This document shows, piece after piece, positions 27,206 to 55,909 of a stretch of DNA of 64,000 nucleotides. The translations under genes were made by a program, and so were the position numbers. A model generated the notes under the pieces. The model was not told the DNA's origin. It saw nothing but the letters and a program-made list of their open reading frames with translations, and ran no database searches. Each line of letters begins with the position of its first letter. The stretch's first letter is position 1. Source of the stretch: Neocallimastix lanati (nom. inval.) (taxonomy: Eukaryota; Neocallimastigomycota; Neocallimastigomycetes; Neocallimastigales; Neocallimastigaceae); contig JACVTC010000140.1 of NCBI GenBank assembly GCA_016946835.1, forward strand, positions 186,001-250,000, in the 5' to 3' direction.

Positions 27206-28483
27206 TTATTGAGTAGATATTGAAATTTCTTGATGAGTTGACTCTGTAACAGGTTTTGCCGGTCTTCTAGTCATTTTTCTTTTAAGTTGTGTGGCACTAC
27301 GAGTTAAATTTCTCTTAACTTGAGTGAATGCTTCAGGGAATTTTTGTTTTAAGTCTTCATATTGATTTGGATTCTTCTTTTTCATAAATACTAAACCTAC
27401 ACCAGCAGCACCAAGAGCAGTACCACCAATAGCAGTTATAATACCAACTGAAGCACCAGCATTACTTTCATCATCTTCTCCTTTAACAGATTCATTTACT
27501 GCTTGTGAAACGACTTTATTGTTTTCTTTAGCTTTAGTAGCAACTTGAGTTGGTTTAGCACCATTTACAGTAGCTTTTGGTGCTCCAGCTTGAAGTGGAA
27601 TATTCTTTGTCATAGTATTATTACCTAACAAGGTTGGAAGAGCACCAGCGGATGTAACAGTCATTGGCATTATTGTTGTAGTAGTTGTTGTAGTAGTTGT
27701 AGTGGTGGTAGTGGTAGTTGTAGTGGTAGTGGTAGTTCTACCAGCAGAAGCATCAAATTCTCTAGTATTACTTGAACTGGAAGCTAATTTCTTAGCATTG
27801 GCTTCGAAAGCTGTAATAAAGGATTTACTAGAAGAAAAACCTAAATGTTCAGCGGCAGAACTAGCATTATTTTCGTATGGACCTGATAATTTTTCACCGG
27901 ACTTTGAATAGATAGCCCAAATAATATTAGATTCACCTTTACTCTTTTCTTCAACGGCAGTAAATGCAGAAACAGATAAATCAACGTGGTACTTATCACA
28001 AGATCCACATGAATCTACAATTCTTGCCTTAACTATTATATTTATTTTTTGTATTTAATATTTTTTATTATTATTAATGATATTATATATTGTTATTTTA
28101 ATGTTTTAAATACATACCCATCTTTTTAGTACCACTAGTTGGCATAAGAACTACATATTGAAAACAATTACCTTTCCAATCAAAATCATTACTCTTTTAT
28201 TTTAAAATAATGATTTTTTTAAATTTATATTTCATTAGTTTTTTTTTTTAAAAAAAAATTGATGAAAATTATTGTATATTCATTAAATTAAATATATTTA
28301 TTAATTGCTTACTAAAGCAGCAAAGTATTCATGTTCACCGAGGTTTAAACTTCCATCACATGCTGGTCTTTTTTGAGTTTCACACTCAGATGGACAACCA
28401 TAGTATGTAATTTCATAATTACCACCAGCAATAACAGTGGCAACAAGACCAGTAAATATAGTAACTAAACCACTTAACTTCAT
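27206..28483 (-). CDS. Membrane-anchored expansin-like (DPBB) protein, paralogue A, three exons
   Basis: Minus-strand exons 28483-28313, 28193-28118 and 28032-27206, phases 0 and 1, giving about 357 residues. A signal peptide (MKLSGLVTIFTGLVATVIAG) is followed by a double-psi beta-barrel-like domain. It starts YEITYYGCPSEC, has one Cys in exon 2, and continues ARIVDSCGSCDKYHVDLS with the AF that usually follows in expansin/RlpA-like proteins (to about residue 130). Then come a Ser/Thr-rich stalk with 21 consecutive threonines (27671-27738), a Pro/Ala/Thr region, an acidic patch, one membrane helix with GAAGVGLVFM (about 275-298) and a basic cytosolic tail, YEDLKQKFPEAF..VKR. It is probably a type I surface protein whose outer domain contacts wall polysaccharide. 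Expansin-like domains loosen cellulose or chitin networks without hydrolysis; activity here is inferred. Confidence 0.85.
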
Positions 28484-29279
28484 TTTAATATATATATTTT
28501 ATTATAATTTTATAAAGTTTTATTTTATTATTGAATAATACGTTTATAATTTATTGCTTCAAAATTTTTTGAATATTTTTATTTGAAATATTATTTATTG
28601 TTTTAAATTTTCTTTTTCGAACAATAAATAATATTTTTTTTTATTTTTTTCTCTTTTTTTTTTTATTATTATTTATTTTTGTTATTTTTTCTTTTTTTTT
28701 TTTCTTGATATATTTATTCAATATCAATATTCCAAGAAAAATGAAAGAAAAAAGTGAAAAGTTATTACTATTAAAGCTTTTTATATAATTTTTGATAAAT
28801 TATTATTAGAATTTTATATGTTCAAATTAATATTGTTTTTTAAAATTTTTTTATGTATTTTTATTTATAATTAATATATTTAAATATATTAAAGTATATA
28901 TTAAATACAATGAAAATATTAAGACAATTTATAACCAATATATTATTTTAATATATATATATTATATATTATATTTTTGTGTAACAATTTAACTATATTA
29001 ATTTTAATATTAGAATAAATACTTTTTTTTTATTTTTTAAAATTTTTAAAATAAAAAAAAATAAAAATTTATAGATAATATATAAGGTAGATTAAAATTT
29101 TATATATATAGTATATTTAAAATAAATTACAAAAAAAAAGAGCATATTTATTTATTATTTTTAATATTATTTATTAATTCTTATTATTATTTAGTATCAT
29201 TATTTATTATTATTAATTTTAATAATATTTTTTAATATTTCTTATTATTTCTTTTTATTTGCTGTTAAAATTTATTATT
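28484..29279. other. Upstream region of paralogue A and A/T spacer
   Basis: T-rich on the plus strand (A-rich on the gene's coding strand) within 200 bp of the start codon. Nothing else identifiable. Confidence 0.5.
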
Positions 29280-29596
29280 TATTAATATTCATTAATATTC
29301 ATTATAATTATTTATTATTTATTAATATTCATTAATATTCATTATAATTATTTATTATTTATTAATATTCATTAATATTCATTATAATTATTTATTATTT
29401 ATTAATATTCATTAATATTCATTATAATTATTTATTATTTATTAATATTCATTAATATTCATTATAATTATTTATTATTTATTAATATTCATTAATATTC
29501 ATTATAATTATTTATTATTTATTAATATTCATTAATATTCATTATAATTATTTATTATTTATTAATATTCATTAATATTCATTATAATTATTTATT
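29280..29596 (+). repeat. 40-bp tandem repeat, about 8 copies
   Basis: The unit ATTAATATTCATTAATATTC followed by ATTATAATTATTTATTATTT repeats without visible change about eight times. Confidence 0.95.
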
Positions 29597-31270
29597 AATA
29601 ACTTTATAATACTTTTATTATATTTTTATTATATTTTATTATTAGTTTATAATTATAATTTTTTAATATTAATCATTATTTATTATTATTTATTATTATT
29701 TATTATTTAAATTTATTATTTATTATTATTTATTATTTAAATTTATTATTTATTATTATTTATTATTTAAATTTATTATTTAAATTTATTATTTATTATT
29801 ATTTATTATTTAAATTTATTATTTAAATTTATTATTTATTAATATTAATTAATATTTATTAATATTCATTATTATTAGTTTTTAATTATTTTAATATTTA
29901 TCATTATTTATTATTATTTATTATTATTTATTTTTTATTATTATTTTGTTATAAAAAATTATATTAAAATATTTAAATATTAATTAAAGTATGAATATAA
30001 TAATAAAGTAAAAAATTTAACAATATTAATAATCATAGTAATAATATAAAATATTATAATATTTTTTTGTTATATAATTAATTATTTAATAATACTTTTT
30101 TTGTTATATAATTAATTATTTAATAATACTTTTTTTGTTATATAATTAATTAATAATTATAAAATAATTTATATATATTTCTTTTTATTTAATATATTTT
30201 ATGTTTATAATATTTTAGATATTTGTAGATTAAATATTATAAATTAAAATTTATTATTATGGCCCAACAAAACTTTCATGAATATTTTTTTTTTCTGTAT
30301 GAATAAAATAATCAATACATTGTATTTATTTTAATTTTTGACTATATTTTTTTATCTAATAATAATTAAAAATATAAATTGTGCAACCATAATTTTTTAT
30401 CTAATAATTATTAAAATTATAAACTGTGCAACAATTTCAAACTAATTTTTATTTTTTATATTTGTATTTTTAAATATATATATATCTATGAAAAATTATT
30501 AATATTTATAAAATTAAAGATAATAATATTATAGTATTAAATAATAAATAACAAATATTTAGTATTAATCAAATTTATTATATTGTATAATAGTATGTAA
30601 TTATGAAATTTAATATGGGGAAAATAAAATATATAATAATTAAAACCTATTACTATTAGCTTATTTTTTATTGGAACAAAAAAGATAAAATTTGGACAGA
30701 TGATGTTAAATTATATTTAACGAAGACTCTATATTAAAATAAGTAAATATTATAAATGTTCTAGAAGATGTATCATATAGATACTAGTTAGTAATAATCT
30801 AATAGTATTTATTATATTATATTAAGATATATCGTTATAGATTATATAGTAATAACGAGCTTACTTATTATCTATATAGTCTTGCAGCATGAGAATGTAC
30901 TTATTAACTTATAAATAATAATAACTCCTAGTATTAGCGCTTTTAACATCAATATTATGATACATAATAATTAAATATAAATATCGAGTATAAATATTAT
31001 ATTGAATTATAGATATAATATGTTATATTAGATATACTAAGATATATTAATAGCTTAATTTAAGTATTTAGATATACTTAAATAGTCTCTAAGAGTATTT
31101 ATCTGAAGGTTTCATAAGAATTAAACCACAATTTATACAAAATTTCAATTATTAATAAATTATTAAAAGTAATAAATATCTTTTAATATTGGCATTTGAT
31201 GCATAAAAACGATTGATTCAATATTATCTTAATATAATTTTTATAAAAACTTTAAAGAAAAAAAAATTTT
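29597..31270. other. Intergenic A/T spacer with minor tandem repeats
   Basis: At 29690-29840 ATTTATTATTTAAATTTATT units are repeated. At about 30064-30147 a 33-bp unit, TTTTTGTTATATAATTAATT plus ATTTAATAATAC, occurs three times. 30650-31150 is slightly more complex in sequence but has no usable frame. Confidence 0.6.
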
Positions 31271-31627
31271 TTTTTTTTATAAAATTTTTAAGAATACTAG
31301 AGTATAATTATTACTTCCAAATTCTAAAGAAGAAAATAAAGGAGACAAAAAAGAGCTTTCAATAGTTAAAATAGATGAACAAGAAAAGGTTGAAAATACT
31401 AAATTTGATGATGATGATGAATTTAAGGATGTTTAAGGATGATAATTACATATTAGAAAAATTAAAAAATATAATATAAATTTTTTAATAAATATTTTTA
31501 ATTATAATTATTTCAATATATTGTATATTTATTTTATAATATATATATTAATATTTACTTTCTTATTCTTTTATTCTTTTAAATTTTTATAAATAATAAA
31601 TTTTAATTATTAATACTAAATAATAAT

Positions 31628-31679
<52 letters not shown>

Positions 31680-31704
31680 TCAATAATTTCGTTTATAAAT
31701 TAAA
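31271..31704. other. Spacer with a short coding-like block and an AAT microsatellite
   Basis: 31335-31436 reads on the plus strand as an acidic, charged peptide (KKELSIVKIDEQEKVENTKF, then an Asp run) that may belong to the neighbouring STI1-like remnant. An AAT run spans about 31622-31677. Confidence 0.4.
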
Positions 31705-32250
31705 GATTGCCTGAAGGACTAAAAGAATTATTGAATTAATTTTATCTGCTATGATACCAGAAGGTACCGATGCTCATTTCACAAACTCTCCACCACTGGA
31801 ATATGTCGAAGTTAAAGAAGCAAAATCAGCATAGCGAGTTAATGTAGCTTCAAAATCTTTCTTTTTATAAGCAGTATTACAAAAATTCTTTTCCTTGTCA
31901 CTTTTATCTCTCTCTTATTCTTCTTTTCCTTTTCTTCTTTTATTAATTCTAGCTCTGGTTCTGGCTCTGGTTTTTCCTTTAGTTCTGATTTTGCTTCTTT
32001 AGTTATAAAATTCTACAGCAAGTTTCTTGCTAAGCATTGTACTCCGTAAGTTCTTAAAGCTTTAAAATAGACTGAAAAGGAAAAAGCTGAAGCTTCCATA
32101 TTAAATTACTATGATGTTGCTAAAGTTGATGAAGTTCCTAATCAAGGTAATATTTTATTCAAGGAAGGTAAATATTCTGAAGCTGTTAATAATTAAATTA
32201 ATGGCTATTAGTGAAGCTGAAAAGGATGAAGTCTTCATATGAATTATATA
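31705..32250. pseudogene. Scrambled fragments of an STI1/HOP-like TPR co-chaperone
   Basis: Two pieces in opposite orientation carry TPR signatures. On the minus strand (about 32010-31830) a Lys/Glu-rich linker leads to NTAYKKKDFEATLTRYADFA, close to the TPR helix pair of STI1-type Hsp70-Hsp90 organising proteins. On the plus strand (about 32065-32195) TEKEKAEAS is followed by NQGNILFKEGKYSEAVNN, another classic TPR start, with stop codons around it. Further plus-strand text at 31752-31830 (PEGTDAHFTNSPPLEYVEV) is coding-like. The pieces cannot be joined in one frame or strand, so a rearranged pseudogene is the simplest reading. Family placement rests on TPR wording and is moderate. Confidence 0.5.
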
Positions 32251-32890
32251 ATATTAAAGATTAAATAACCATAATAAATAATACAATAACCAAATTAAAA
32301 TCATTTTTAAGTCAATAATGATGAACATTAACTTTAAATTTCGAATTTTAATTCCAACACTAAGCATGATTAAAAAAAGAACAATATTAATTAAGAAAAA
32401 ATACTTATTTAAAGCTACCTATAAACCTTATTATATTAATAAGTAATATTAATTAATCCTATACATAATCTTTTTTAATAAAAAAATAAATAAAATAAAA
32501 TGAAAATTTTTAGAAAAATTTCAATAAAAAATTATTTTAAGTATATAATTCTTTTTCATTTATTTTTTTTTTTTATTTATCAAAAATTATTGTAAAAGTT
32601 TTAAATATCTAATATTTATTTTAACAATTTTTTTTTAGTTATTAACCATTATTTTTCATATTTCATCATATATTATTTTTTTTAAAATACTTTTCATTTT
32701 TAACCAAAATAAATATAGAAATCAAGATATAATCATATATATATTACTTATTATTACATTAATTAAATCTTATTTTTTTTTCATTGAAATCCAATAACAA
32801 TAAAAGCAACTCTTTAAATATACATTAATACTTAACTTTTTATTCCATTTAATTGAATAAAAAAAATTTATTCATGTTCTTTTAATTCTT

Positions 32891-32931
<41 letters not shown>

Positions 32932-33284
32932 TTAAAAAAAAAAAGTTTTTAAAATACAATGTCAAACATAAATAATTAACCTTTTATTTAAAAAAAATAA
33001 TTTATAAAAATAATAACAATATAAAGTTATACCATATAATTTAATAAAAAAAAAAAAAAAGCATTTTAAAAATTTATGTTAATAATGAATATAATAACTT
33101 TAATATGTCAAATTCCCATGCTTTAGTAAAACTATTTATATATATACACTAAAGATGACAAATATTAATAAATACTTTAAATAAAAAAAAAAAAAACCTT
33201 TAATATATAATTATTACTATTTAAAAATATTATTTATTAAAATTTCAATAATACATTATATTTTTATTTTTATTTTTATTTTTA

Positions 33285-33333
<49 letters not shown>

Positions 33334-33511
33334 ATTTTATTTTTTGAATCTACAATATTAATTTATTCAAATATTTTTATCACACTTTTTTTATACTCTT
33401 TGGATTATCATAAAAATATTAACTTTTCTAGGATATTTTAACATATAAAAAAAAACTTATTATTAGATATAAATTATTCTATACTATAATTTAATTTACA
33501 TGTAACAAATG

Positions 33512-33543
<32 letters not shown>

Positions 33544-33639
33544 TAAATATATAAAATGGATGAATTCTATGTTTTATATTTTAAAATCAATAGCTCATGT
33601 AGAGGATATAAATAAATTCAGAAAAAAATAAAAAGTTCA
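32251..33639. other. Intergenic A/T spacer
   Basis: (ATT)n run at 32893-32932, (TTTTTA)n at 33260-33332, A/T homopolymers. No gene seen. Confidence 0.55.
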
Positions 33640-33790
33640 TAGGTAATGGAACCTCCTCTGTAATTCTCGTTCTTTCTTTGTTCGATCCAAATAGAGGTGC
33701 ATAATATGAGACTTGCCCTATTACTATATAGCAGGAATTAACACGGATAGGAAAAATAAGGATTGTAAGGGTTAGGGTTATGATTTTGTT
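33640..33790 (-). mobile_element. LINE fragment (after the reverse transcriptase domain)
   Basis: On the minus strand it reads VSYYAPLFGSNKERTRITEE, matching SVLYYAPLLGSNKKNTEKAQ of the LINE at 5.9 kb. Short and disconnected. At its plus-strand right end is TAAGGGTTAGGGTTA (33771-33785). Confidence 0.6.
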
Positions 33791-34140
33791 ATTATTGAAA
33801 TCTTATATTAGTTTATTTTTTAATCTTATTTATTTGAAGCAAATGGCATATTTTTTAAGAATACATAATTTAATGTAATTTATACATACAAAATATATTT
33901 GATGGATCATACATATTTCAATACATTAAATACAACTATATAAAAGAGGCTTATAAAATTAAAAATTTTTTAAAACTATATATATATATTCATAAACTAT
34001 ATAAACTATATATTAATATAATATATTCTATTTATTTATAATAACATATTTAATATTTAAAATTATAATAAAAGTTGTAATAAAATAAAAATTATTAATT
34101 AAAATGTTAATTAAATTTGTAAACTAAAAATACTAATTTT

Positions 34141-35100
34141 CTAACAAAATCTAAATTGATTCTTAAGAAATCCATTTATGGAGTAAAGTACTTTTCTAAC
34201 TTTATTATTCATTCTTTGTAAGATAGTTTTCAATTCTAAATCATTTGAAAAAGGTACACCAAGGTAGGCATAGCAATACGTTTTAAATAACTCTTGACTT
34301 GAATGACAAAAAGTGGGGTTACTATTATTAAGAAATCTTGAAACATCTCCTCGTACTTCTAAACTAGTATATTTGTTGATACTAAATTGCATATTTCTTG
34401 ACCATTTTCTGGTTAATTTTAATAATTTCTTAAGTTGAGATTAATATCTACCTCTCGTCCATGACATAGTTGAACCCATTAATTGAAAGAATAAACCAGT
34501 TATCAAGGTTATTGTTGGTTAATTTATCTTGCTAATCAGAAGGAGCTCATGTTAAAGTCTCCAAGAAGAATAAATGGATAGGTAGTGTGATTCTGATGTC
34601 ATATGAGAGCTTCAGAGAATGTATATCAGACTTGTAATGAGTGTTTCTTTGTGGGAATATAGACATTACCTACAGAACACTTAGAGTGATTTCCATAGAC
34701 TATAGGTTATTAAAGAAACAAGATGAATGTTAGGAATTATCCTCAAGGACGACTTGACATGAGACATGATAACCCAAGATATAAACCTCTGCAACCCGGG
34801 GTATTGGAATCCATTCTCTTCTGGAAATATTTGTAGTTGGGAAGTGTTACTTTATATGGATATCTAGCATCATTGGTACCGTTACCTGTTTCCTAAAAAC
34901 GTAGGAATAATGATTTAATAATTCATGTTGAAGTACTCAATGTTATCACTTTTCACAAATCACAAAAAATTCCATCCATTTGTGTTCTAACTAAGACAAA
35001 AAGAAAAACTTTTCTGTGTTAGAATGTGAAATTGGATTTTGAGAATTAAGATTAGATATATTGGGAGCATTGAAATTCATGATTGGCATTTATAATATTT
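34141..35100 (-). mobile_element. Decayed LINE fragments (reverse transcriptase connection and endonuclease pieces)
   Basis: The open frame 34392-34141 reads YCYAYLGVPFSNDLELKTIL, like SYLGIPFNESLDLKPII in the intact LINE. Further along, at about 34543-34575, the minus strand contains FILLGDFNMS, the endonuclease GDFN box. The order on this strand is endonuclease then RT part, but most of the RT is missing. Stops and gaps throughout. Confidence 0.6.
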
Positions 35101-35445
35101 ACTATACTAATTGAACTGAGACTTGCTGAGTTTATATTACTGGATGGTACTATTAGATAATAAATTTTGTTTTAAATGCTAAAAAAGAAAACCTTTTGAT
35201 TCCATTTGGAACATCTACAATATGACATTTTAAATCCTGATATTGTTTTTTTTTCAAATAATTTTAGGTTAATTTCGTTGATTATTATAGAATATAGGTC
35301 CATTAATATTCCATGACTGAGAGTATCTCTGACAATTTCCTAAAGCAACCTCCAAGTAATTTTAAACTATGTCCAGTAATATCTAAAGATAATTCCTTAA
35401 AATGTTAAATCTAAATAGTTAATAATGTACATTAAAAAAAAATTT

Positions 35446-36484
35446 TTTTTTTCTTTTTTTTTTAACGGCAGCAAACTTGTTTCATCTTTATTAATTAAAT
35501 ATTTGAAAAAAATACATGTAATAAAAAGAAAAAAAAAAAAAAAAAAGATAAAAAAATAAACAAAACAAAACAAAAAAAAAACACAAAATAAAATAAAATA
35601 AAATAAAATAATGGTATAAAATATTCTAGTTTTATTTAATTAATATTTGTAAGACTTCACAAGGGCATTATTATACTGAAGTATAATAATTAATTTTGAC
35701 TTAACAATGTTATTCATAATTTTAAGATATGAAATTATGATCTTCATTGGTTGCGCTAGCCCTGCTGGCCTTTCTTCTATCTTACTATTTCTTCAGCATT
35801 GACGTTCTTGGTAGTAAGTAGTACGATTCAATTTGAACCTATTGAACAAAGACCATTGCTGGCCAATAGCAATAGGTATAATTGATTGAAGAAGTGCCGC
35901 AGTAACCACCAAGAATAGAGTATCAGAATAAGCACCTGATTTCATCTGGCACATAAGTAGATCCTTCCATTCCTTTGTACTGTTATTAATACTGTTATTA
36001 AAAATTAGCTTTAATAGAATTGATTTTCATATCTCTTTTCCAATAAAAATCCTTGATTTTATTATCGTTATTACCTCTTTTCTCTGGTTTACGTTTAAGA
36101 GTTCTACTTTCTTTCGTCCATGTATATTTTCTAGATTTTGGAATATTATTAACTAAATAGGAAATAATACAATTTGAATCTTTCCATTTATCAAAACATT
36201 TGACTTGAGACAAAGCATACTTAGCTGACAATGGAAGAATATTTAAATCTTTTTGAAATTGAATATACATTAATAAAAGATTTGGCTTTTTGTAAAGCTG
36301 CAATCTATCTTAATCCTATATTAATTAATTTCTGAGTATTATTTGTTCTCACTTTATTTGAACCAAGTAAGGAATTTTGGAATTTGAAAGAAATTTACTA
36401 ACAGAAAAGAGAGCTTTAGAAACTTTAGAGTTAAGTAATTTAATAATAGGGTTCAACGATAAGCTTTTATCAAATGGTATACCT

Positions 36485-36538
<54 letters not shown>

Positions 36539-36610
36539 GGCAGCAAACTTGCTTCATCTTTATTAATTAAATATAATGGTATACCTAAATAGGTACAACA
36601 TTTAGTTATT
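35446..36610 (-). mobile_element. Decayed LINE copy of a second family, 3' half
   Basis: Starts (minus-strand 3' end) at a T-run before AACGGCAGCAAACTTG (35465-35480), so the poly(A) end of a minus-strand element. The minus strand has TLFLVVTAALLQSIIPIAIG (about 35930-35870), similar to the C-terminal FLTNVMPIVIG part of the 5.9-kb LINE. The frame 36303-35998 has KCFDKWKDSNCIISYLVNNI, and 36480-36361 has LGIPFDKSLSLNPIIKLLNS. The 3' end differs from the 5.9-kb family. Interrupted by stops and by the nested insertion at 36488-36574. Confidence 0.65.
36488..36574 (-). mobile_element. Tiny nested retro-insertion: about 40 bp of element 3' end plus poly(A)
   Basis: A T-run of about 47 followed by AACGGCAGCAAACTTGCTTC and about 19 further bases, flanked by direct repeats AATGGTATACCTAAA(T) at 36473-36488 and 36575-36590. 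The inserted tail is the same 3' end as at 35.46 kb. This is a severely 5'-truncated retrotransposition event inside an older LINE. Confidence 0.88.
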
Positions 36611-37570: not shown

Positions 37571-38673
37571 TTAAACATATAATGTGTCAGTAGATTGTTT
37601 TGGTGCTCTCTTAGTAACTCTTCTTTTGATTGAGGTAGCACTACGACTTAATCCTCTCTTAACATTATTGAAAGCTTCTGGGAACTTTTGTTTCATTTCT
37701 TCATAAGTACTTGGGTTCTTCTTCTTCATGAAAAGTAAACCTACACCAGCAGCACCGAGAACACCTCCACCAATAGCAAGAAGTCCGATTGTGGTACCAG
37801 TACTATTTTCATCATCTTCTTCTTTTTCTTTCTTATCTTCACTAATAACCTTTTCAATTGTTTTAACTGATTGGGTTTGTTGTGGTGCCTTACCAGCAGA
37901 AGTAACTGGTACTTTGACACCTGGTACAACAACTGGATTGACAGAAGCAGTTACATTTTTAGAAACACCAACCGGTAAATCTTTAGCTGGTAAGGTATTG
38001 TTTGGTAAAGTCTTGACTGGAACAGCTGAAGGAATTAAGGCTTTAGTCGTTAGAATTGGAGCAAGGGTTTTAGATGTAATTCTAGAAGAAGTAGTGGATA
38101 CAATCTTTTTTGAAGTAGATTTCTTTTCAACAGAACCACTACTAGAAGAATTGAAGCTTCCGCTACTGCTGCTACTTGAAGCTAATTTCTTAGCATTACC
38201 ATCAAAAGCAGATATGAAAGCATCAGAAGACATACCAAGTTTTTTGGCAGAGCCTTCGACACTATTATAGAATGGGCCAGCTAATCTACTACCACTTTTA
38301 GAGTATATACCCCAAATAATTTTACCAGTACCTTTACTCTTTTCACGTATTTCTTTGAAAGCAACTTCGGATAAATCAAGATGATATCTAGCACAAGATC
38401 CACAAGAATCAACAACAGTGGCCTTAGCTATATCAATATTAATTATTAATAACAAAATTGTTATTTATATAATATTTATTGATGAATTAATAAATGTATA
38501 TTTTTTCATTTGAAATGCTTTCAATTTTAGAAATAAATAAAATTAAGATAAAATATATTAAATATAATTAATATACATACCAAGTTTTTCGACATTACTA
38601 CCATCAGCCATCATGTAAACAGCATAATTACCACAGTAGTCTTCATAATTTTTTAATTTTTTACTCTTTCAAG

Positions 38674-38709
<36 letters not shown>

Positions 38710-39055
38710 ATAAAATTTGTATTTTTTTTTTTTTTTTAATGATGAAAAATATTTTAAAAAATATTTTAATTGTAAAAGAACTTTATTTCTTATATATATA
38801 TATATATTTTACTTTAAAAATAAAAAAAAAAAAAAAACTATTTTAATAATATTAACTATTTATTTTAATACTTACTAAAGCAGCAAAATGAGATGGAAGA
38901 TTGTCATTATCAAAATGTGGACAAGATGGATTACGTTGAGCTGAACATTCGCTTGGACAACCATAGTATGTAATTTCATTGTCAGCTTCACCTCCACTGG
39001 CATATACTGAGGCAATAGCTAATGTTAATAAAGAAATAGCTTTTAATAATTTCAT
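37571..39055 (-). CDS. Membrane-anchored expansin-like (DPBB) protein, paralogue B, three exons
   Basis: Minus-strand exons 39055-38876, 38665-38581 and about 38427-37571, phases 0 and 1 as in the two paralogues, giving about 373 residues. Signal peptide MKLLKAISLLTLAIASVYA; then ITYYGCPSECSAQ with NPSC, a Cys in exon 2 (EDYCGNYAVYMMADG), and TVVDSCGSCARYHLDLSEV followed by AF; IIWGIYSKSGSRLAGPFYNS closes the domain. A Ser-rich stretch follows (about 165-195), then a stalk with KTLP and PAKDLP motifs, an acidic/Lys patch, one membrane helix with GGVLGAAGVGLLFM (about 298-320) and the tail YEEMKQKFPEAF..VKR followed by SRSAT. Compared with A it has no Thr run. Surface expansin-like role inferred; no catalytic residue can be assigned. 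Confidence 0.87.
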
Positions 39056-41871: not shown

Positions 41872-41902
<31 letters not shown>

Positions 41903-43965: not shown

Positions 43966-44093
43966 TTTCAACTCCAATTTATTATAAATTAGAATTTTAT
44001 TTTTCTAACCTTTTATAAAATAAAATTATACTTAAACCTATATGTTTTACTTTATAATTTTAATTTTTTAAATTTTATCTAAATCAATAATAC

Positions 44094-44139
<46 letters not shown>

Positions 44140-45541: not shown

Positions 45542-48500
45542 ATGATTAATATTCAAGATAATATAAATACGAATAATTCAAATGAAATATCGAATCTTTT
45601 CGATGAAGAAATTGTAGAAATTTTCGGAAACCTTTATATTGCTAATGTCAGCAATAGACTTAGAGAATTAGAAAATCCTAATGATGTCGATTGTAAAAGA
45701 TGGGTTTGGGAATTAGTTCAAAATGCTAAAGACAGTATTGCAGGTAATTCTGATCGAACTTCTGTTGATATTGAAATACCTATATCTTTAAACATGATGG
45801 ATCTCCATTTACTTTTAAAAATCTTACTGCTATTCTTTATAAATATAGTGATGGTAAAAAGAAGGATTGTGAAAGTACTGGTCGTTTTGGAACAGGTTTT
45901 CTTACTACTCATTGTCTTTCTAAAACTGTAGAAATTATTGGAGATGTTATTTTAAAAAACGAAACTAAACCTAAGGGGTTTACTGTTACGATGTATAGAG
46001 AAGGTGAAGATGAAGAACTTAAAAATGGCTTAGACAGAATGAAAAGAAGTTTTAATTGTCCAATTCCATCTGATGGCTGGACTACCTATACGTATGGAAG
46101 CAGTTACCGAGAGAAACAAAGAAGCGGGAAGATTAGGTATTACTAACTTTAAAGAAAATATTGCCAGGGTTATGCTATTTTGTTCTGAAATCAAAAGTAT
46201 TAAACTTATTGATAATGATCAAGAATATAATATTGAGCGTGGAAAAAGTTCTCCTGATCTTTTTGGATGTCAAATTTTACCATTCTATATAACGGATAAT
46301 GGAAAATCATACGTCAAAAACTTTTTGCATAATCAAATTAATGAATATAATGAAAAATTAACTCAAAAATTTGGAAAAAAACCAAGAAATCTTAGAATCT
46401 GTTGTGCTTTGGAATTAGATGAAAATAATAATATAGTTAACGATTGTAGATTACCATGTCTCTTTTGTTCTCTTCCATTAGTTGGATCGGAAAGTCATGA
46501 ACTACCATTTATCATAAATAGTCCTGATTTTGAACCAGATTCTGAAAGACAAGCTATTTTATTAGATGGTAATGAAATTAATGAAAAAACCAAAAAGCTT
46601 TCCGATTCTGGAGTTAATATGATGATTCTTGACCGAGCTCATGAAATATTTGAAAATCTTCTTAGATATATCAGTAGAAATGAAGAAATTGGAAAAAGGT
46701 ACCAATTAACAAGAGGATTATGTCATACTCCGTATGTTACAAGATTTTTTGATAGTAAATGGTATAAAAACGAATTTATAATCCCAATGCGAGAAATTTT
46801 ATTACAATATGAAATTGTATGGGATGGAAATAAATTTGTGAAATTGACTGATGTTAATATTCCACAGTTTAGTCCTAACTATAATCATATTATGTCCATT
46901 ATATCCAACAAGTTATATGATAGAAAGGTTCCTGAATTTAATGAATCTATTCTTATTGAAAAGAATATTTGGACAAATGATTCAAAATTACATTATATTG
47001 ATATGATAAAATGCATTGAAAAAATTGAAAAGTTTAGAACTATGGATGTATTAAGTTCTAAAGTTAGTAATGCTTGGCATTGGCTCGATGAATTCCTTGT
47101 CTTTATTAAAAGAAATCATCCAGGTTATCTTGAAGAACATGCTATTATTCCAAATATGAATTCCGATTTCGTAAAGTTAACGAAAACACTTTCGTCGTCC
47201 AAAAATGTTCCAGAAAATATGATTGAATGTATTGAAGAGTTTGGTATTTCATGGAAAGATGAACATATTAACAAAAATATTGAAGAATACACAACTGGTA
47301 CTGATCATGATATTGATTATACTGTTTCTCGTATGCGTGGTTGCCTTAAACAATGGCCAAACAATGGTCAAAACAATATTTTAACTTTAATGCATTATAT
47401 TCCTCATGATCTAGATGAAAAATTTATAGAAAAACGTGAAAATCTTTATGATTTTTGTAGTACAATTTGGAATAGTGAGATGACTGACAAGAAAAATGGA
47501 AATAATTTTCCTATCGAATTATGGAATGGTATTGATGATATGGTATTTGAACATCTATGCATGAATATTTCAGCTTTTAAAAAATTAAATGATCGCATAA
47601 CCATAGATTTCATGAAAAAATTTTTGGAATGTGCTTCTCAGTATTATCAAATGTATCGTCATTATTCCTTAGTTCCTAATCAAAATGGGGAATTTTGTGT
47701 TATTGATAAAATATATGAGGATGATAATATTCCAGAAATATTTTAAAGAATGTTTAAGCGTTTGCTTTAATTACGATATAAATAAAGAATTACTTGATAA
47801 AGAAATGTTACCTATAAAGCATTTATTTAATAGAGATAAAAAGAGTATTAACAGCTATAGTTATAAATTGAAAAGTTTCTTTGATTTACCTGAAAGTTAT
47901 ATTACTAATTCTGGTTATGGAAAAAAAATTAATTCAAACTATATACCTATAGAAAAAAAAGAATTGGCTGCAAATTATCTTATTAGAATAATTCCAGAAC
48001 AAAATTTAAGTAGTTCAAATCGACAAAGAAAACTTTTCAATTTATATGAAATATTTACTAATAAGAGTTATGATAAATTTGAAATTAAAAATAATTTGTA
48101 TAATGATGAAATTTGGCGTTCATCTAACAAATATATCTTTAAATTTATCAGAAAGGAAATTGAAAAACACGAAAATCTTAAATCTTTAGAAGATTATATT
48201 TGTAAAAATGAGGAGGAGACATTAAATTACCTTTTAGAATTTATTAAATATTCAAAAGAAGGAAGAGTTATACTTAATCAAAATGACCAATTTTGTCAAA
48301 GAGACCAATTACAAAATGATGAATTTGAAAATAATGCTTTCATACCGGATATATTAAAAGATATTTATAAATTATTAGGTGTAGATATAAGAAATTCACT
48401 TGCACATACTCGAATGAATAGACCATGTGAAAAAGCATTAACTTTTCAAAATATTTGTGTGGAAATTGATGAAAAAATGAGTAATAAATATAATGAACCA

Positions 48501-49361
48501 AAAAATCACTCTGATCCTGATTTTAAAAAAGCCTCAAGCTGCTTAATTGAAGAGTATTTCGAGAAAATTGGTGATGAAGAAGCTAAAAAGAACTTCCCAT
48601 TAATATATAAGTTAAAGGATCCTATTACATTAAATGTTATTTTTAATAAAGAAACTCGTCAGAGCATGACCAAATTTGGTAAATTATATGACAATGAGGA
48701 TATTGAAAAATTAATAAAAAATAATGAAATCGTGAAAAAAATTCTGAATAATACAAATATTTTAAATAAAATTAAAAATGACGATATTTCAGATCAAACT
48801 TATTCAAGTATCGAAAAATTTTCCGATTTTGATGATGATAGCAAGAGTATGAGTATTACATTTAGTTCTACCATTAGTTCTAATCTTGAAACTTTGAATG
48901 AATATAAAGAATATATCAGAAATATTTTTACCCATATTGATTTTATTAACTCTGTGAATCTTAGAACTGGTAGATGTGGTGAAGCATATATCTATGAATA
49001 TCTTCGTAATTCTGGCTTATACAAAAATGTAAAATGGAATATGTTAAGTCAAGATAGTAATGGGGAACTTTTAGAATATCGGAATAATACATATCTTATT
49101 AAAAAAGAAGGAGCTCCTTATGACATAGAAATAGAAACATATGATAATCGTACAATTTATGTTGAGGTTAAATCGACACGTCACGAATTTGGAAATAAGA
49201 TTCCATTTTACATTAGTGAACATCAAATTAATGCCATGAGAGAGACTCTTCCACCAAATAAATATGTATTAGCTATAGTATTTGATGTTATGAACCATCC
49301 TAGACATTTCTTTATGTCATTAAGAGAAAATATTGGTAACTTAAAATTAGTTGAAAATTGA
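45542..49361 (+). pseudogene. NO VEIN-like GHKL ATPase-DUF3883 protein, intronless, interrupted by three frameshifts
   Basis: One long coding region of about 1,270 codons in four frame segments: 45542 to about 45790, about 45790 to 46090, 46073 to 47746, and about 47740 to 49361. The N-terminus has the GHKL ATP-binding boxes: WVWELVQNAKDSI (N-box, about 45704), HDGSPF (about 45792) and GRFGTGFLTTHCLSKTVEI (about 45880). These are as in sacsin-type and NO VEIN ATPases. The C-terminus (about 48930-49330) matches DUF3883, a PD-(D/E)XK-like fold: RCGEAYIYEYL, then APYDIEIE, then IYVEVKST, with Asp and Glu-Val-Lys in the catalytic positions. The middle is unassigned. The breaks lie near 45790 (possibly with a few lost codons), 46085-46110 and a T-run at 47737-47744. 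No stop codons occur otherwise, so it is either a very young pseudogene or affected by assembly errors. Substrate and role unknown. Confidence 0.78.
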
Positions 49362-49375
49362 TTTAATTATGATAT

Positions 49376-49738
49376 TAAATGAAATAAAATAAAATAAAAT
49401 AAAATAAAATAAAATAATATAAAATAAAATAAAATAAATATTGAATATGAATATAAAGTACAAATTGAATAAAATAAAGTAAAATAAATATTGAATATGA
49501 ATATAAAGTACAAATTGAATAAAATAAAATAAATATTGAATATGAATATAAAGTACAAATTGAATAAAATAAAATAAAATAAAATAAAATAAAATAAAAT
49601 AAAATAAAATAAAATAAAATAAAATAAAATAAAATAAAATAAAATAAAATAAAATAAAATAAAATAAAATAAAATAAAATAAAATAAAATAAAATAAAAC
49701 AAAATAAAATAAAATAAAATAAAATAAAATAAAATAAA
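49376..49738 (-). repeat. Small array of the AAAAT/core compound minisatellite
   Basis: Directly after the ATPase-DUF3883 gene. AAAAT pentamers plus three copies of TTGAATATGAATATAAAGTA followed by CAAATTGAATAAAAT (49438-49565). This is a diverged version of the core in the 60-kb array, in the same orientation (reverse of the 1.3-4.2 kb array). Confidence 0.93.
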
Positions 49739-50189
49739 TGAAAAAAAATTCAAATCGTTAGTGAATAGTATGTAATTATAAAAAAAAATTTTTTTGTTTA
49801 AAATAGAGTTTAAATTTATTATGGTTCTCTTATTGATATCCATAAATAATTTACCATATTATTGGTGAAGAAATGAAAATATTAATAAAAATAAATTGTT
49901 ATTATTTTTTTATAAAAAAAATGTTAAGGATATCAAATATGAAAAGTATTTTGAAAAATTAAAAAAAAAAAAAAAATACATAATAAATATAACATTATAG
50001 TATTATTCATACAAGAAGACATATCAAAATATAAAAAAAAATACATGGAAGAAAAATGATACTATTTAAAATTAATATCGATTACAAATAACTGTATCAA
50101 AATTATTCATTGAGTAATGTTTAAATTTTTTTACCATTACCCTCTTAACTACGAGAATTAAGATGAACATCATTTAGTGAACCTCATTG
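49739..50189. other. Intergenic A/T spacer
   Basis: No gene seen; 50120-50185 is slightly GC-richer and leads into the poly(T) start of the next repeat. Confidence 0.5.
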
Positions 50190-50575
50190 TTTTTTTTTTT
50201 TTAACAGACTCAATTATTGTGAACTTTAATTTTTATTTATTTATTTATTTATTTTTTAATTACATGAATATTTTTTATTTATAAAAAAAAACAAAGAATT
50301 AATAAAAAAATAAATATTATTTGTCTAAATTGAACATAATAAGTTTTAAAATAGTGATTTGAAATAAAAAGTAATATTCAAAAATAAAATGTATAATTTT
50401 TTTTTTTTTTTTAAAGCTGCAATTATTGTCAACTTTACGAATATTTTTAATTTAATTAAATTACAAAGAATTAATAAAAAAAAATAAATATTATTTGTCC
50501 AATTAGAACATAATAATATTTAAAATAGTAACTTAAAATAAAAAGTAATATACAAAAATAAAGTGTGTAAATAAA
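50190..50575 (-). repeat. Two tandem copies of an about 190-bp poly(A)-ended (SINE-like) sequence
   Basis: Copy 1 (about 50190-50398) starts with T12 then AACAGACTCAATTATTGTGA. Copy 2 (about 50399-50578) starts with T14 then AAAGCTGCAATTATTGTCAA. Both continue with CAAAGAATTAATAAAAAAA, TAAATATTATTTGTC and AAAAAGTAATATNCAAAAAT. On the minus strand each ends in poly(A). The head also resembles 26436-26470. Type uncertain. Confidence 0.7.
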
Positions 50576-50579
50576 TTCA

Positions 50580-50900
50580 GAAAAAAGTCAATGAACCTCA
50601 TATCCTTATGGATTAGAATTTGAATTGACTATCTGAAAAGAAATTATGGTCTTCTTTTCCTTCAGAAGCACTGGTCCTGCTAGATAGCCTATCCATATTG
50701 CATTTTCAGCACTGACACTCCTGGTTAATTTGCACTTGTTACTGTCGGAATAGCAACCCTTGATGAGGTACTAGCCCTCCTGGGCATAATATTTGTAAAG
50801 AGAGAGTCACAGAGAGCACCAAGAATGGCGTTTTGTAATAATCATCAGAAATGATTTTGTTCTTAAAAAAAAAACATCCCCATTCCTTTATTATTAACTT
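50580..50900 (-). mobile_element. LINE fragment of the second family (3' region)
   Basis: Plus-strand text GAAATTATGGTCTTCTTTTC, CAGCACTGACACTCCTGGT and CACCAAGAATGGCGT matches 35.73-35.98 kb (GAAATTATGATCTTCATTGG, CAGCATTGACGTTCTTGGT, CACCAAGAATAGAGT), the 3' part of the second LINE family. No open frame left. Confidence 0.6.
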
Positions 50901-51257
50901 AAATCAATAATGTCTGTATCTCTTCCACCAAAAAAGAAGTTAAATAATCTGAACTTCGTTACGTATATATTTACACACTTATTATTCAGAAAATTACTTA
51001 AAATTAACACGATTTTCACCAATTGAACTATTCACTAAATTATTAGTAACGATACTTATCACTATCATTATTATTAAATAATATTCCTATATATTTTCAC
51101 TATCACTAATTCTACTATTATTAACAATAATATTTCTATTGTTATTATTATTAATATTATACTCTTCTTTACTACTATTAGAATCAATATTCGATTCTAC
51201 AATATTCATATCTATGACTACAGTGTTTTCATTACCATTTGATATTGGACAATTTGT
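50901..51257. other. Spacer with an Asn-rich coding-like remnant on the minus strand
   Basis: The minus strand from about 51253 to 51095 reads SNGNENTVVIDMN and then Asn/Ser-rich text to a stop. It may be a fragment of a host or element ORF. Its head is repeated at 53.05 kb beyond the LINE copy that follows. Confidence 0.35.
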
Positions 51258-53043
51258 TTTTTTTTTTTTTTTTTTTTTTTAGACTTAGAGAAAACTTTAT
51301 TTAATTTATAATAATAATAAAATTACATGATTTTAGTGAAAAAAGAAAAAAATAAAATACATGAAATAAAATATTATACATTATAAAATTATAAAAGTGC
51401 ATTAGAAGTAATAGCCTCTAACTTTTCCCATTCCTCGATGATAACACCACGTCCATTATTGCGAGTAATAATTTCAGTATTAGTGTTATCAAACAAATCT
51501 GTATCAGTTCTTTCACCGGGTGGTGAAAATCCATACCTAATTACTTCGACGTCGATGCTCTTATCAACGGTTGATTCAATAGATTCATCGGAATACCATT
51601 TCATCATCAATCTAAAAGATCGACAAATTAATATTATTATGTTTGTTAGAAACTACGCAATCCCTACAAAATACGGAACAATCGACGAAGTTGAACTTTA
51701 TTTAAAAATATTGTCAACTAATTATCTTTGTTCCCCATCATTAACTTTAATTTTTGAATATATTGAACGCCCACCAAGAAGTGCACTCAATATAAAGTAA
51801 TAAATATTATTATCATAATCCTTTTCTGAATCTAAAGAAACATCCAAGGATTTTTGTTCTATTATCATTGCAAACTTCAAAAAGAGATTATCTAGAAAAG
51901 GTAAAAGATTTATTTCTGTAATTTTCCAATACTTACAGAAAAGCTAGGTACACTAACACCACAGCAAGGCAAACATTTAGGGCAATCTTCTGAGACGATT
52001 TTTCTTTTAATGAAAATACTAATGTCAAATTTAAAACCACACCTAATTCGAGAAATCCAAAAGAATCCAAACTGATACTTAGGATATTGAAATGTTAAGT
52101 TTCTGATTTCTGAAATAAATCCAAAATCATTCTCCTTGTAAATAATTGCTTTTTTAGCTTTTGAGGAGGTATTCTCAATTCACGAGTAATATCATAGAGA
52201 CTAACATAAGAATTGCGAGATTTAAATCCATAACTCCAATAAAGTCCTCTATTAATAATTTTTTGAGCTTTAGAACATCTGCTCTTATTTGAACCAAAAA
52301 GAGGAGCATAATATATAATAAGACTAAGAATAAACGAAAATAAAACATATTTCTTCAATGGAAGAGGAATAGATTTATTAATAAGAAATCGAAATTACAA
52401 ATTTAACTTGACATTTAAATTACTGTTTAATTTGGATTGTATAGGTTTCAATGATAAAGATTCATCAAAAGGAATATCAAGATAAGTATAGTTGTCAGTT
52501 TTAGGTAATTTATTACTATCAATAAAGAAAGATGGATCTTCATAATTTTTCGGTTTAACAAAGTTAATTGGTTTTACGACAAGAGTAACACACTTATAAA
52601 TTCCAAAAGTCATTTCATTTTTAATAGTCCATTCATGAACTATACTCAAAATTTTCTTAAGAGCTTGTTTAGATGGAGCAACTAAAACAATATTATCCTC
52701 AAAAAGTCCACCACAATAATATTGAGAATCTAAATATACAACATACTTATCACAATTATCTAGTACATCATTAATGAACAAATTGAATAAATTAGGAGAT
52801 AGAGGAGGGCATCCTTGTCTAACACCACGATTAATCGAAATTTCTTCAGAGAGATTACCATTAAAAAAAGCACGAGCTTTAGAGGATAGATAAAGATTCT
52901 TTAAAAACAGATGACATTTATCTCTAATTCCTAAGTTATATAATTTAGTCAAAATATTAAAGATAGGTACCAAGAGAAGTGTTGATAGTAATACCCCCTC
53001 AGGGACACCATTTCTGGTGGTACGCTCCTCAGGAGGTCTACAC
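51258..53043 (-). mobile_element. 5'-truncated, dead LINE copy of the 5.9-kb family
   Basis: The minus-strand 3' end is the T-run at about 51258-51281, followed by the same 3' UTR end as the 5.9-kb LINE (AGACTTAGAGAAAACTTTAT on the plus strand). Open pieces: 51610-51389 (GVIIEEWEKLEAI C-terminus), 52358-52095 (YYAPLFGSNK) and 52973-52395 (RT from just after motif A to the connection). Motif B has an extra Pro (GCPPLSPNLFN). Motif C reads GLFEDNIVLVAP in place of GLFADDIVLLAP, so one of the two catalytic aspartates is lost. The copy starts at VPIFNILTK, so everything upstream of motif A is missing. Confidence 0.88.
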
Positions 53044-53094
53044 TATTCATATCTATGACGATAGTATCTTCATTACCATTTGATATTGGTTTGT

Positions 53095-53710
53095 ACATTA
53101 AAATTATATATAAAAATAGAAAATATATAATTATATTAACTATAAATTAATATGAGATAGCTATATTAAAAAATTATTCATTTGTTTTTATTTTATTATA
53201 TATATATACGTATATATATTTATTTTTTATTGATAAATTTTTGTAATTTATAATAAATTTATAATTTATATTATTTGTTATTTATCTAAAAAATATATAT
53301 ATAATTCTTAAAATGGAATAAAATAAAAATAATATATCCTAATTATAAAATAATTAGGAAAACAAAACAAAACAAAACAAAGAAAAAAAAAAAAAAAAAA
53401 AAAAAAATTTGGATTTAATGTTAAATAATATTTCATTTTATTTTATTGTGTATATAATAAATAAAATAAATATAATATTAACAAATAAATAAATAATAAA
53501 ATTTTTAAATATGATATGATATAATAAATATTATTAAATAATAAAAAATAAACAAGAATTATATAAAAAATTGATAATTTTTATTCAATAGTAATTTAGT
53601 TTATATTACAAAAAACAAAAATATAAAAAAAAAAAAAAAAAAAAAAAAATAAACTACTATACAATATAACAATTAATTTTCTTTTCTATAATAAAATAGA
53701 TAACATAATT

Positions 53711-53760
<50 letters not shown>

Positions 53761-53777
53761 ATATTATCTAGTTAATT
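53095..53777. other. Intergenic A/T spacer downstream of paralogue C
   Basis: A-runs at 53382-53407 and 53621-53649, T-run at 53710-53752. No gene seen. Confidence 0.65.
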
Positions 53778-55909
53778 TTATACATAAAATCTACCATCAT
53801 TTGGTGATCTATGAGATGATAGCCCTCTTTTTATTGAAGTTGCTCTATGAGATAAACTTCTTTTAACAGTGGAGAAAGCTTCTGGAAATTTTTGTTTCAT
53901 ACCTTCATAGGTACTTGGACTTTTCTTTTTCAGTAAGAGTAAACCAACACCAGCAGCTCCGATACAACCACCACCAATAGCAATGATACCAATAGTAGTA
54001 TCTATATTGCTTTTCTTATTTTCAGGTTCCTTTTCCTTATTATTATTAGAAACAGTTGATGAGGATATTTGAGATGGAATAGTGGAGACTTGTGTTGGAA
54101 CTGTATTAGTAATTGAATTGAATGTAGCAGTAGCTTGATTAGTATTATTAATATCATTTGGTAAATTCTTAGCTGGTAAAGTTTTTACAGGTAATGTATT
54201 GATGTTATCTGGTAAAGTCTTTGTATCATTAGTGATTCCATTATCAATTGATGGTGGTAAAGTCTTTGTATCATTAGTGATTCCATTATTAAATGATGGT
54301 GGTAAAGATTTTGTATCATTAGTGATTCCATTATCAAATGATGGTGGTAAAGATTTTGTATCATTAGTGATTCCATTATCAAATGATGGTGGTAAAGATT
54401 TTGTATCATTAGTAATTCCATTATTATATTTTGGAAGTAATGTCTTAGTATTACTAGTGTAATTTGGATTTACTGGTAAAGTTTTTGCATTATTAGTAAT
54501 TCCATTATTATATTTTGGAGGAAAAGTCTTCGTATTACTAGTGTAATTTGGATTTACAGGCAAAGTTTTGACATTATTAGAGTAACCAGAATCAACAACT
54601 GGTAAAGTTTTAGAATTGGAATAATCTATATTAATTGGAATTGTTTTAGTGTTGGTGTAACCTGGATTGGCTGGAGTAGTTTTAATGTTAGAATAATCTA
54701 TATTAATCGGAAGAGTCTTTGGATTACGAGTGATGGGAAGAGTTTTAGTTGTGACTCTCTTAGGTGGGAATTTAGTAATATATCTAGTGGTGGTTGTTCT
54801 AGTTGTAGATCTAGTAGTCCATCTAATTATTGATCTAGTTGTTCTAGTTGTTGTTCTTGTTGTTGATCTGATAGTAGAACTAGTAGTAGATCTAGTAGTA
54901 GATCTAGTAGTCCATCTAGTTGTTGATGATCTAGTAGTAGATCTAGTTGTAGATCTAGATGAAGTAGTTTTCCTTGAAGTAGAAGAATCATAATTATCAC
55001 TCTTTCCAGAAGAAGAGAATTTAGCAGAATTATGACTACTAGAAGCTAAACTTCTAGCATTTGAATCGAATGTAGAAATGAATGAATCTTCAGACATACC
55101 AAGTTGGCTAGATACACCACTAACACTGTTATAAAATGGACCAGCTAATCTTTCACCATTTTTAGTATAAATACCCCAAATAATCTTACCAGTACCCTTA
55201 ATATGTTCACGAAGTTCTCCAAATGCAGTTTTTGATAAATCGAGATGATATTTAGAACATGAACTACATGAATCAACAACAACAGCTCTGGCTATATATA
55301 TTCAATAGTAATTAATTACATATAATATTTATAATTGCATAATAAATATAAATATTTATATATTAGACATACAATATTCAATAAGAACATTTTTTTTTTT
55401 AATAAAAGAAAAAAAAATTAAAAGAATAAAATAAAATAAAATAGTAATTACAAATAAACAAATTAATTTATTTAATTATACCTAATTTATCAGATTTGTT
55501 ACCATCGGCCATCATGTAAACTGCGTAATGACCACAATAATCATCATAATGAGATAATTTAGTACTCTGAATATTTAATGTTTATTTTAATTATAATTCA
55601 ATTTTTTTTATAGTATTAATAATTTATGCATTTTAGTAAAATATAATATAATATTTATTAATATAAGACAAATTAAAAATATTAATAAATCAATAAATCA
55701 ATACTATCATTATATATATAAATACTTACTAAAGCAGCAAAGTGTGATGGAAGATTGTCATCATCAAATTGTGGACAAGAGGGTCTTCTTTGAGCTGAAC
55801 ATTCTTCTGGACAACCATAGAAAGTCATTTCATTATCTGCTTCACCTCCACTAGCATACACAGAAGCAAATGTACAAACTAATAGTGTAATTATATTATA
55901 TAATTTCAT
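53778..55909 (-). CDS. Membrane-anchored expansin-like (DPBB) protein with long Thr/KTLP stalk, paralogue C, three exons
   Basis: Minus-strand exons 55909-55730, 55566-55482 and 55291-53778, phases 0 and 1, giving about 592 residues, the longest of the three. Signal peptide MKLYNIITLLVCTFASVYA; domain with MTFYGCPEECSAQ, one Cys in exon 2 (DDYCGHYAVYMMADG), then VVVDSCSSCSKYHLDLSKT with AF and IIWGIYTKNGERLAGPFYNS. Then a Ser region, a mucin-like block of TTR/STTR repeats (about residues 195-260), many KTLP units spaced by Asn/Tyr/Pro linkers, and five 15-residue repeats of the type NGITNDTKSLPPSFD (54211-54435). A membrane helix with GCIGAAGVGLLLL (about 520-542) and the tail YEGMKQKFPEAF..VKR finish the protein. 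The stalk looks built to hold the barrel away from the cell surface. Function inferred from domain type. Confidence 0.88.
54211..54435 (-). repeat. Five in-frame 45-bp repeats in the stalk of paralogue C
   Basis: The unit TATCATTAGTGATTCCATTA (plus strand) recurs every 45 bp. Copies differ in a few bases only, so the 15-residue protein repeat is recent. Related but more diverged KTLP units extend the stalk up to about 54720. Confidence 0.93.

Follow-up and report, generated by a model that had tools for sequence, protein, structure and literature searches.

Expansin-like predicted membrane proteins of the anaerobic fungus Neocallimastix lanati share a membrane helix and an 11-residue-periodic tail with CAP and GH114 proteins

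Microbial expansin-like proteins such as EXLX1/YoaJ, swollenin and loosenin are built on a double-psi beta-barrel (DPBB) domain, D1, and secreted expansins normally have no membrane segment. The effector domain of MARCKS, which is membrane-adjacent, basic, spotted with hydrophobic residues and rich in kinase sites, is an electrostatic switch. WSC-type wall-integrity sensors combine a Cys-rich head, a Ser/Thr-rich stalk, a single membrane helix and a cytoplasmic tail (PMC9024836), and the 11-residue (11-mer) repeats of perilipin and synuclein form 3-11 helices on lipid (PMC5889406). A report on expansin-like proteins of rumen fungi names YoaJ, CBM and DPBB domains, and its main text contains none of the words 'transmembrane', 'membrane' or 'anchor' (PMC12632131). 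Here we analyse three genes, A, B and C, in a 64,000-nucleotide stretch of Neocallimastix lanati (nom. inval.) DNA (the window: GenBank assembly GCA_016946835.1, contig JACVTC010000140.1, positions 186,001 to 250,000, or C47:186001-250000 in the contig:position labels used for loci); all counts refer to this one 199-Mb, 762-contig fungal genome. The three genes appear to encode expansin-like membrane proteins in which the transmembrane helix and cytosolic tail (TM+tail) form a module with an 11-residue period, and the same module is found on CAP and GH114 ectodomains.

Splicing from DNA yields three-exon models of A, B and C with 0 internal stops, each with two GT..AG introns at equivalent positions (phase 0 after ...AAL, then phase 1). 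Kyte-Doolittle hydropathy (KD, 19 residues) peaks at residue 3, as for a signal peptide (1.84, 1.62 and 1.48 in A, B and C), and at residues 280, 304 and 524, as for a membrane helix (1.90, 2.08 and 2.26). KKK stands after the membrane helix in all three proteins and an acidic stretch precedes the helix in A and B, which fits a head outside and a tail in the cytosol. The models and the hydropathy bear out the shared architecture claimed in the original prediction, a model's reading of the bare sequence: signal peptide, Cys-rich domain, stalk, one membrane helix and basic tail. The KTLP motif that it assigned to the stalks is present in those of B and C and has no copy in that of A. Pfam rows for RWP-RK, Dicty_REP and YtxH were rejected as far under cut-off. 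The features, in window coordinates, are:

27206..28483, minus strand: gene A, expansin-like membrane protein, 357 aa; exons 28483-28313, 28193-28118 and 28032-27206, spliced from DNA
27806..28429, minus strand: gene A, Cys-rich double-psi-barrel-like domain, across three exons; PF03330 22.2 bits (cut-off 28.8) and PDB profile matches
27449..27805, minus strand: gene A, Thr-rich stalk, from translation
27383..27448, minus strand: gene A, membrane helix; KD 1.90 over 19 residues
27209..27382, minus strand: gene A, cytosolic tail; YEDL at 27350-27361, three 11-mer units at 27254-27352
37571..39055, minus strand: gene B, 373 aa; exons 39055-38876, 38665-38581 and 38427-37571, spliced from DNA
38201..39001, minus strand: gene B, double-psi-barrel-like domain; PF03330 22.6 bits and PDB profile matches
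37793..38200, minus strand: gene B, Ser/Thr/Pro stalk with KTLP, from translation
37727..37792, minus strand: gene B, membrane helix; KD 2.08
37574..37726, minus strand: gene B, cytosolic tail; YEEM at 37694-37705, three 11-mer units at 37598-37696, helix in AlphaFold models
53778..55909, minus strand: gene C, 592 aa; exons 55909-55730, 55566-55482 and 55291-53778, spliced from DNA
55065..55855, minus strand: gene C, double-psi-barrel-like domain; PF03330 19.8 bits and PDB profile matches
53997..55064, minus strand: gene C, long stalk with TTR-type and KTLP repeats, from translation
53931..53996, minus strand: gene C, membrane helix; KD 2.26
53781..53930, minus strand: gene C, cytosolic tail; YEGM at 53898-53909, three 11-mer units at 53802-53900

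The last 78 residues of B, used as query, gave 24 genome matches at E<=0.001, with a best non-self E of 3.9e-28, a result that excludes chance likeness and extends the conservation of the tail to other members, as the original prediction required. A CAP-type tail query added 2 further loci, for a total of at least 26, and two more queries (19 and 23 rows) gave no extra; the total is a lower bound, only first-look candidates having been scored. Reading of upstream frames together with family searches assigns the ectodomains at the 26 loci to a first barrel type (13), a second, barwin/DPBB-type barrel (5), CAP/PR-1 (6) and GH114 (2). All 13 type-1 loci also match the barrel query, and the CAP (6/6) and GH114 (2/2) loci exceed their Pfam cut-offs. 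Single tail-bearing proteins scored 45.1 bits for CAP, 197.3 for GH114 and 23.6 for Barwin (cut-off 21), the last being the type-2 barrel of C666; C9 and C57:1185 stay under the cut-offs, and the type of C223 and C446 was judged by eye from their likeness. In the reverse view, tail loci account for 13/16 barrel, 6/15 CAP, 2/26 GH114 and 2/10 DPBB_1 family matches. We conclude that TM+tail belongs to no single ectodomain family, nor to every member of any. Because CAP and GH114 ectodomains, otherwise those of secreted proteins, carry the same TM+tail as the expansin-like genes, the tail is not the expansin-family feature that the original prediction took it to be.

Further comparisons bear on how the module is shared. 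A profile of type-1-barrel tails matches a profile of CAP and GH114 tails with a profile-profile probability of 98.5%. In a tail tree, which is weak and has one long-branch row (C57_1185), the CAP and GH114 tails cluster (support 91/87, not starred). For both GH114 genes an intron at one shared place can link the GH114 exon to stalk, helix and tail, as one of several possible joins (5 and 14 candidates). A tail profile run against viral contigs and a collection of bacterial and archaeal genomes gave 133 and 175 pattern matches with 0 confirmed, so that no prokaryotic or viral source of the tail was seen there; the tail profile had no PDB match at E<=1. No name for the tail module was found among the open-access titles and abstract starts listed, with PMC5168858 and PMC8262932 consulted further, a scope that leaves unlisted papers, subscription journals and genome-portal annotations outside.

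The tail itself begins, in most members, with [KR]K[NS]PxxYxxPhi and continues with about 2-4 tandem 11-residue units of consensus [LIVM]-K-R-x-hydrophobic-[ST]-R-x-A-[ST]-x. The units stand in register in A (LKQKFPEAFTQ / VKRNLTRSATQ / LKRKMTRR..) and in C9 (LREKFPEAFSN / IKRSISRGSTV / VKRSLSQSGKA / LKRSLSKKG..), and the best example of a length change by a whole unit comes from a pair of CAP tails, C20:314 having one 11-residue unit more than C47:298 (SVKRSATTVTS / SVKRSATNVTR). Over the first 48 tail residues, similarity at lag 11 gave z 18.3 for 26 tails (0/500 shuffles) and z 13.0 for 9 representatives (0/1000), scores that overstate independent evidence because the tail sequences are related paralogues, with the 9 representatives a partial cure; the runner-up lags among 3-18 were lag 4 (z 8.1 and 4.8) and lag 7 (z 6.3 and 4.4), as for an amphipathic helix. 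Among nine angles tried, the mean hydrophobic moment is greatest (z 15.7) at the angle of a 3-11 helix, 98.2 degrees, and is near-equal at 96.4 degrees (z 15.5) and 100 degrees (z 14.5), so that a 3-11 helix is not separable from an ordinary alpha-helix. The results support a tail that, folded as a helix, would be amphipathic, its polar face strongly basic and rich in Ser/Thr. R-x-x-[ST] occurs at 81 sites in the 26 proximal tails versus 26.7 +- 4.4 after shuffling, an excess that may stem from the repeat itself. YxxPhi lies 7-8 residues from the membrane in 22/26 tails, including A, B and C, and is missing in 4/26 (C666, C223, C9 and C446, all of the second barrel type); it thus cannot be the function common to all tails. 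A talin-type NPxY reading was set aside, the tails having [NS]PxxY, one residue longer.

The tail shares its 11-residue period and helical amphipathicity with the 11-mers of perilipin, synuclein and apolipoprotein (PMC5889406). It differs from these 11-mers in being the cytosolic tail of type I surface proteins, in being basic, in its R-x-x-[ST] sites and about 2-4 units, and in consensus; the likeness is one of design, without demonstrated sequence relation; likeness to MARCKS is one of idea, likewise without demonstrated sequence relation, and here the tail stands beside a membrane helix.

Within the window, TM+tail identity is 69% for A-B, 59% for A-C and 71% for B-C, compared with 49%, 43% and 75% for the barrel and 22%, 33% and 23% for the stalk; across 66 pairs from 12 full models, the medians are 55% for TM+tail, 44% for the barrel and 23% for the stalk. 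TM+tail identity exceeds barrel identity in 5/8 pairs detailed and is lower in 3 (B-C, C20_238-C and C312-C146). The conservation of the tail that was originally proposed holds, with the tail above the barrel in A-B and A-C and not in B-C; 'almost invariant' describes the tails of the three window genes and not the family, in which those of C20_229, C20_238, C312 and C446 are worn or shortened. For the three window pairs, TM+tail dN is 0.21-0.31 at dS 0.65-0.99, and low dN at high dS indicates a tail kept by purifying selection rather than a recent copy. The close pair C20_217 and C20_224 (L038/L039) has barrel pN 0.071 above pS 0.049, with TM+tail pN 0.007 and pS 0.214; a head under diversification or a local conversion is possible for this pair, for which counts are small.

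DPBB_1 (PF03330), the sole Pfam row retained for A, B and C, is sub-threshold (19.8-22.6 bits, under the 28.8 cut-off). The heads were compared with known structures by profile. A profile from an alignment of 9 barrels, taken from the 12 full models, matched 11 PDB sequences at E<=1. The best match is a papain inhibitor, 5ntb (9e-8); 4jcw, 9ms5, 4js7 and 7wvr match at 1.4e-7 to 4.4e-6, of which 9ms5 and 7wvr are annotated expansin/EXLX1 and 4jcw and 4js7 are presumably expansins too. Further matches are a cytochrome-trimer chain, 9l08 (0.0006), which is out of place, expansin 9ms4, EXLX1/YoaJ 2bh0 (0.039) and, weakly, two kiwellins and one RlpA-like chain. The barrel core reads D-x-C-x2-C-x3-[HQ]-[LV]-D-[LV]-S; the D and S of its D-x-S are unchanged in 9/9 aligned barrels, and we take the Asp to be D82 of EXLX1. 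An expansin D1 with core and Asp is thus recognized by profile, short of the Pfam cut-off. Expansin_C (D2/CBM63) is missing from the Pfam rows of all three proteins at E<=1, in searches where HMMER filters discard most weak matches. Because the barrel profile matches expansins and no second expansin domain was found, the heads are, judged by sequence, single-domain, D1-like and expansin-like, and the expansin-like double-psi barrel proposed at the outset stands on profile matches of E 9e-8 to 4.4e-6. Relative to described microbial expansin-like proteins, A, B and C share the barrel core and the profile matches, lack Expansin_C/D2 in their Pfam rows and add a stalk, a membrane helix and a tail; the predicted membrane helix (KD 1.90-2.26) separates them from secreted expansins.

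The explanation that we tentatively favour, while stopping short of calling it probable, is that A, B and C use a modular plasma-membrane anchor, joined in this genome to secreted domains of no fewer than three unrelated kinds and serving as a localisation-and-switch tag. The module and its 11-residue period can be read directly from the sequences; what the heads do, like lipid binding, phosphorylation and sorting, we infer. The head would contact polysaccharide in or beyond the fungal wall and the stalk, probably glycosylated, would cross the wall. The tail helix would rest on the acidic inner leaflet through MARCKS-like electrostatic binding, from which basophilic kinases acting at R-x-x-[ST] sites could detach it. 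An adaptor of AP type would read YxxPhi, and the protein would then be recycled and held at growing surfaces; in Candida, fungal AP-2 reading of YxxPhi is reported to be needed for recycling of the wall enzyme Chs3 (PMC6426607). The tail would be a common tag, with the ectodomain deciding the outside contact. Such a design puts one anchor module on unrelated ectodomains in one genome, and the repeat predicts lipid binding, unit-wise insertions and deletions, kinase sites and an adaptor motif. A rumen fungus might in this way hold domains of expansin-like, CAP and glycosidase type on its own surface, at its contact with plant cell walls, where they would stand beside secreted dockerin-bearing enzymes, and the design would offer a short transplantable tag, usable in yeast, for asking if 11-mer helices phospho-switch type I membrane proteins. 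CBM_10, which we take to be the fungal dockerin of anaerobic fungi, has at least 150 matches in the genome, 150/150 scored being over cut-off (of 1440 first-look candidates), and none in 14 control genomes; together with the AT-rich DNA this points strongly to an anaerobic gut fungus (Neocallimastigomycota).

Besides the limits given with the statistics above, several observations weigh against this explanation. In the unit table the CAP tails C47_298 and C20_314 fall outside the register; C446 keeps about two units, the register is lost in C312 and C20_238, and the FPEAF unit contains proline. The 11-residue gap that the profile-profile match sets between type-1 and CAP tails is alignment-dependent, as MAFFT matches each unit with one counterpart and opens a gap of 4 residues. 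AlphaFold, given the membrane helix and tail of B as a single sequence, predicts a tail helix at 42-66 (mean pLDDT 89-91 for 41-60 and 74 for 61-70), which speaks for the explanation, but in a model without a membrane helix (overall pLDDT 68.5, pTM 0.33), and the model from three window rows is weaker (60.4; tail blocks 72-61), with helices at 14-29, 31-40 and 42-64 of modest confidence. Hydropathy therefore sustains the membrane helix of the original prediction, as does the three-row model at modest confidence, and the single-sequence model does not. GxxxG is not enriched in the membrane helix (18/26 versus 15.5 +- 2.1), and glycine-zipper clustering was dropped for that reason. By eye, the barrel proteins L001, L002, L003 and L048 have a membrane helix and other tails, so that this tail is not required for anchoring as such.

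Conservation of the tail had been taken to imply an intracellular partner, which need not follow, since an 11-residue-periodic, amphipathic, basic tail has a design known for lipid contact (PMC5889406). A wall-sensor or wall-cytoskeleton role of A, B and C is possible, and an account in which the tail docks a signalling or cytoskeletal protein while the head reports wall state, as Wsc1 does via Rom2 (PMC6469404), is one we consider unlikely but worth keeping in view: the layout of Cys-rich head, Ser/Thr-rich stalk, single membrane helix and cytoplasmic tail equals that of WSC sensors (PMC9024836) and tail identity is above barrel identity in 2/3 window pairs, but A, B and C have no WSC/PAN (PF01822) row, the tail is an 11-mer repeat with no known partner, and a generic amphipathic repeat with variable unit number suits a lipid surface over a specific docking peptide. 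A genome search with PF01822 gave 0 matches, but 14/14 control genomes were also silent, and the result is not used as absence of WSC. Similarly unlikely, in our estimate, is a tail that is a trafficking tag before all else, in which the function conserved is that of [NS]PxxYxxPhi, whether in endocytosis, in recycling or in sorting to endosome or vacuole, and the repeat helix serves as a basic spacer. The fixed distance of YxxPhi from the membrane in 22/26 tails and all three ectodomain families speaks for it, as do the need for AP-2 recognition of YxxPhi in Candida (PMC6426607) and the use of tail YxxPhi by LAMP1/2 (PMC5297682); yet the four tails without YxxPhi retain repeat-like tails, which led us to reject a YxxPhi-only account, and in a 16-tail alignment, which holds none of the four tails lacking YxxPhi, V-K in the repeat and P and Y in the motif are equally invariant.

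Basic tails after membrane helices are usual, and many module genes are clustered paralogues, as a plain stop-transfer anchor would have it, the tail being merely basic in the positive-inside sense and its likeness the product of recent duplication and composition. This account is already disfavoured, and we hold it to be very improbable: TM+tail dS of 0.65-0.99 with dN of 0.21-0.31 among the window genes, a lag-11 signal that beats composition-preserving shuffles, the 11-residue unit inserted between two close CAP tails and, by eye, the lack of the repeat in other membrane-anchored barrel proteins of the genome all stand against it. More remote still is a tail helix that directs the proteins to an internal membrane or lipid droplets; it could appeal to the 11-mer design of perilipin and synuclein (PMC5889406), but the wall-type ectodomains point to the cell surface. 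To our knowledge, moreover, perilipins have neither an N-terminal signal peptide nor an outside glycosylated domain. A bolder reading, quite doubtful as it stands, would make the module an all-purpose receptor tail that anaerobic fungi plug onto different proteins, a phospho-regulated, membrane-lying 11-mer helix that connects many extracellular heads binding wall or substrate to a common intracellular read-out. The module could also be the missing membrane anchor of the integrin-less talin/vinculin/paxillin/IPP scaffold reported in Orpinomyces C1A, in a paper whose cited parts make no mention of such tail proteins (PMC5042518).

Other loci resemble the module genes in part. L002 (C201:117837) and L003 (C157:317169) are longer expansin-like proteins that, by eye, resemble two-domain expansins after the barrel and end in a C-terminal membrane helix with an unrelated cytosolic end; they appear to be a second way to anchor expansins in the same genome, and L005 and L006 resemble them without a membrane helix by eye. 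The other barrel proteins with different tails are L048 (C111:34366) and L001 (C113:1696878), the latter with a long charged stretch before the helix. L085 (C135:707500-710200) is a CAP gene whose product has a membrane helix and, in its basic tail, KKPEKYQKL. It matches the tail at E 0.126, was not counted and is perhaps a diverged module member. Also not counted were C113:1698183 (E 0.0067), where the match covers the membrane helix part only, weak matches at C82 and C2, and C6 (L047), which by eye shows a membrane helix followed by a tail that is short, divergent and repeat-like. C20:203-331 kb and C47:213-325 kb run parallel, with minus-strand expansin-like tail genes followed by plus-strand CAP tail genes, a layout that suggests an old segmental duplication or diverged haplotypes.

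Elsewhere in the window, a 497-aa Lys/Asn-rich frame (16810-18303, minus strand) has no Pfam match at E<=0.01. A LINE-like retroelement frame with endonuclease and reverse transcriptase lies at 5929-9216 (plus strand) and a reverse-transcriptase fragment at 52398-52973 (minus strand). The frame at 14186-14902 (plus strand) has a Ribonuclease T2 domain (97.9 bits) and a C-terminus that is acidic and of low complexity. Three frames at 45542-49358 (plus strand) are probably one NO VEIN-like gene: the first two have no over-cut-off match, and a NO VEIN C-terminal domain (39.1 bits) closes the third.

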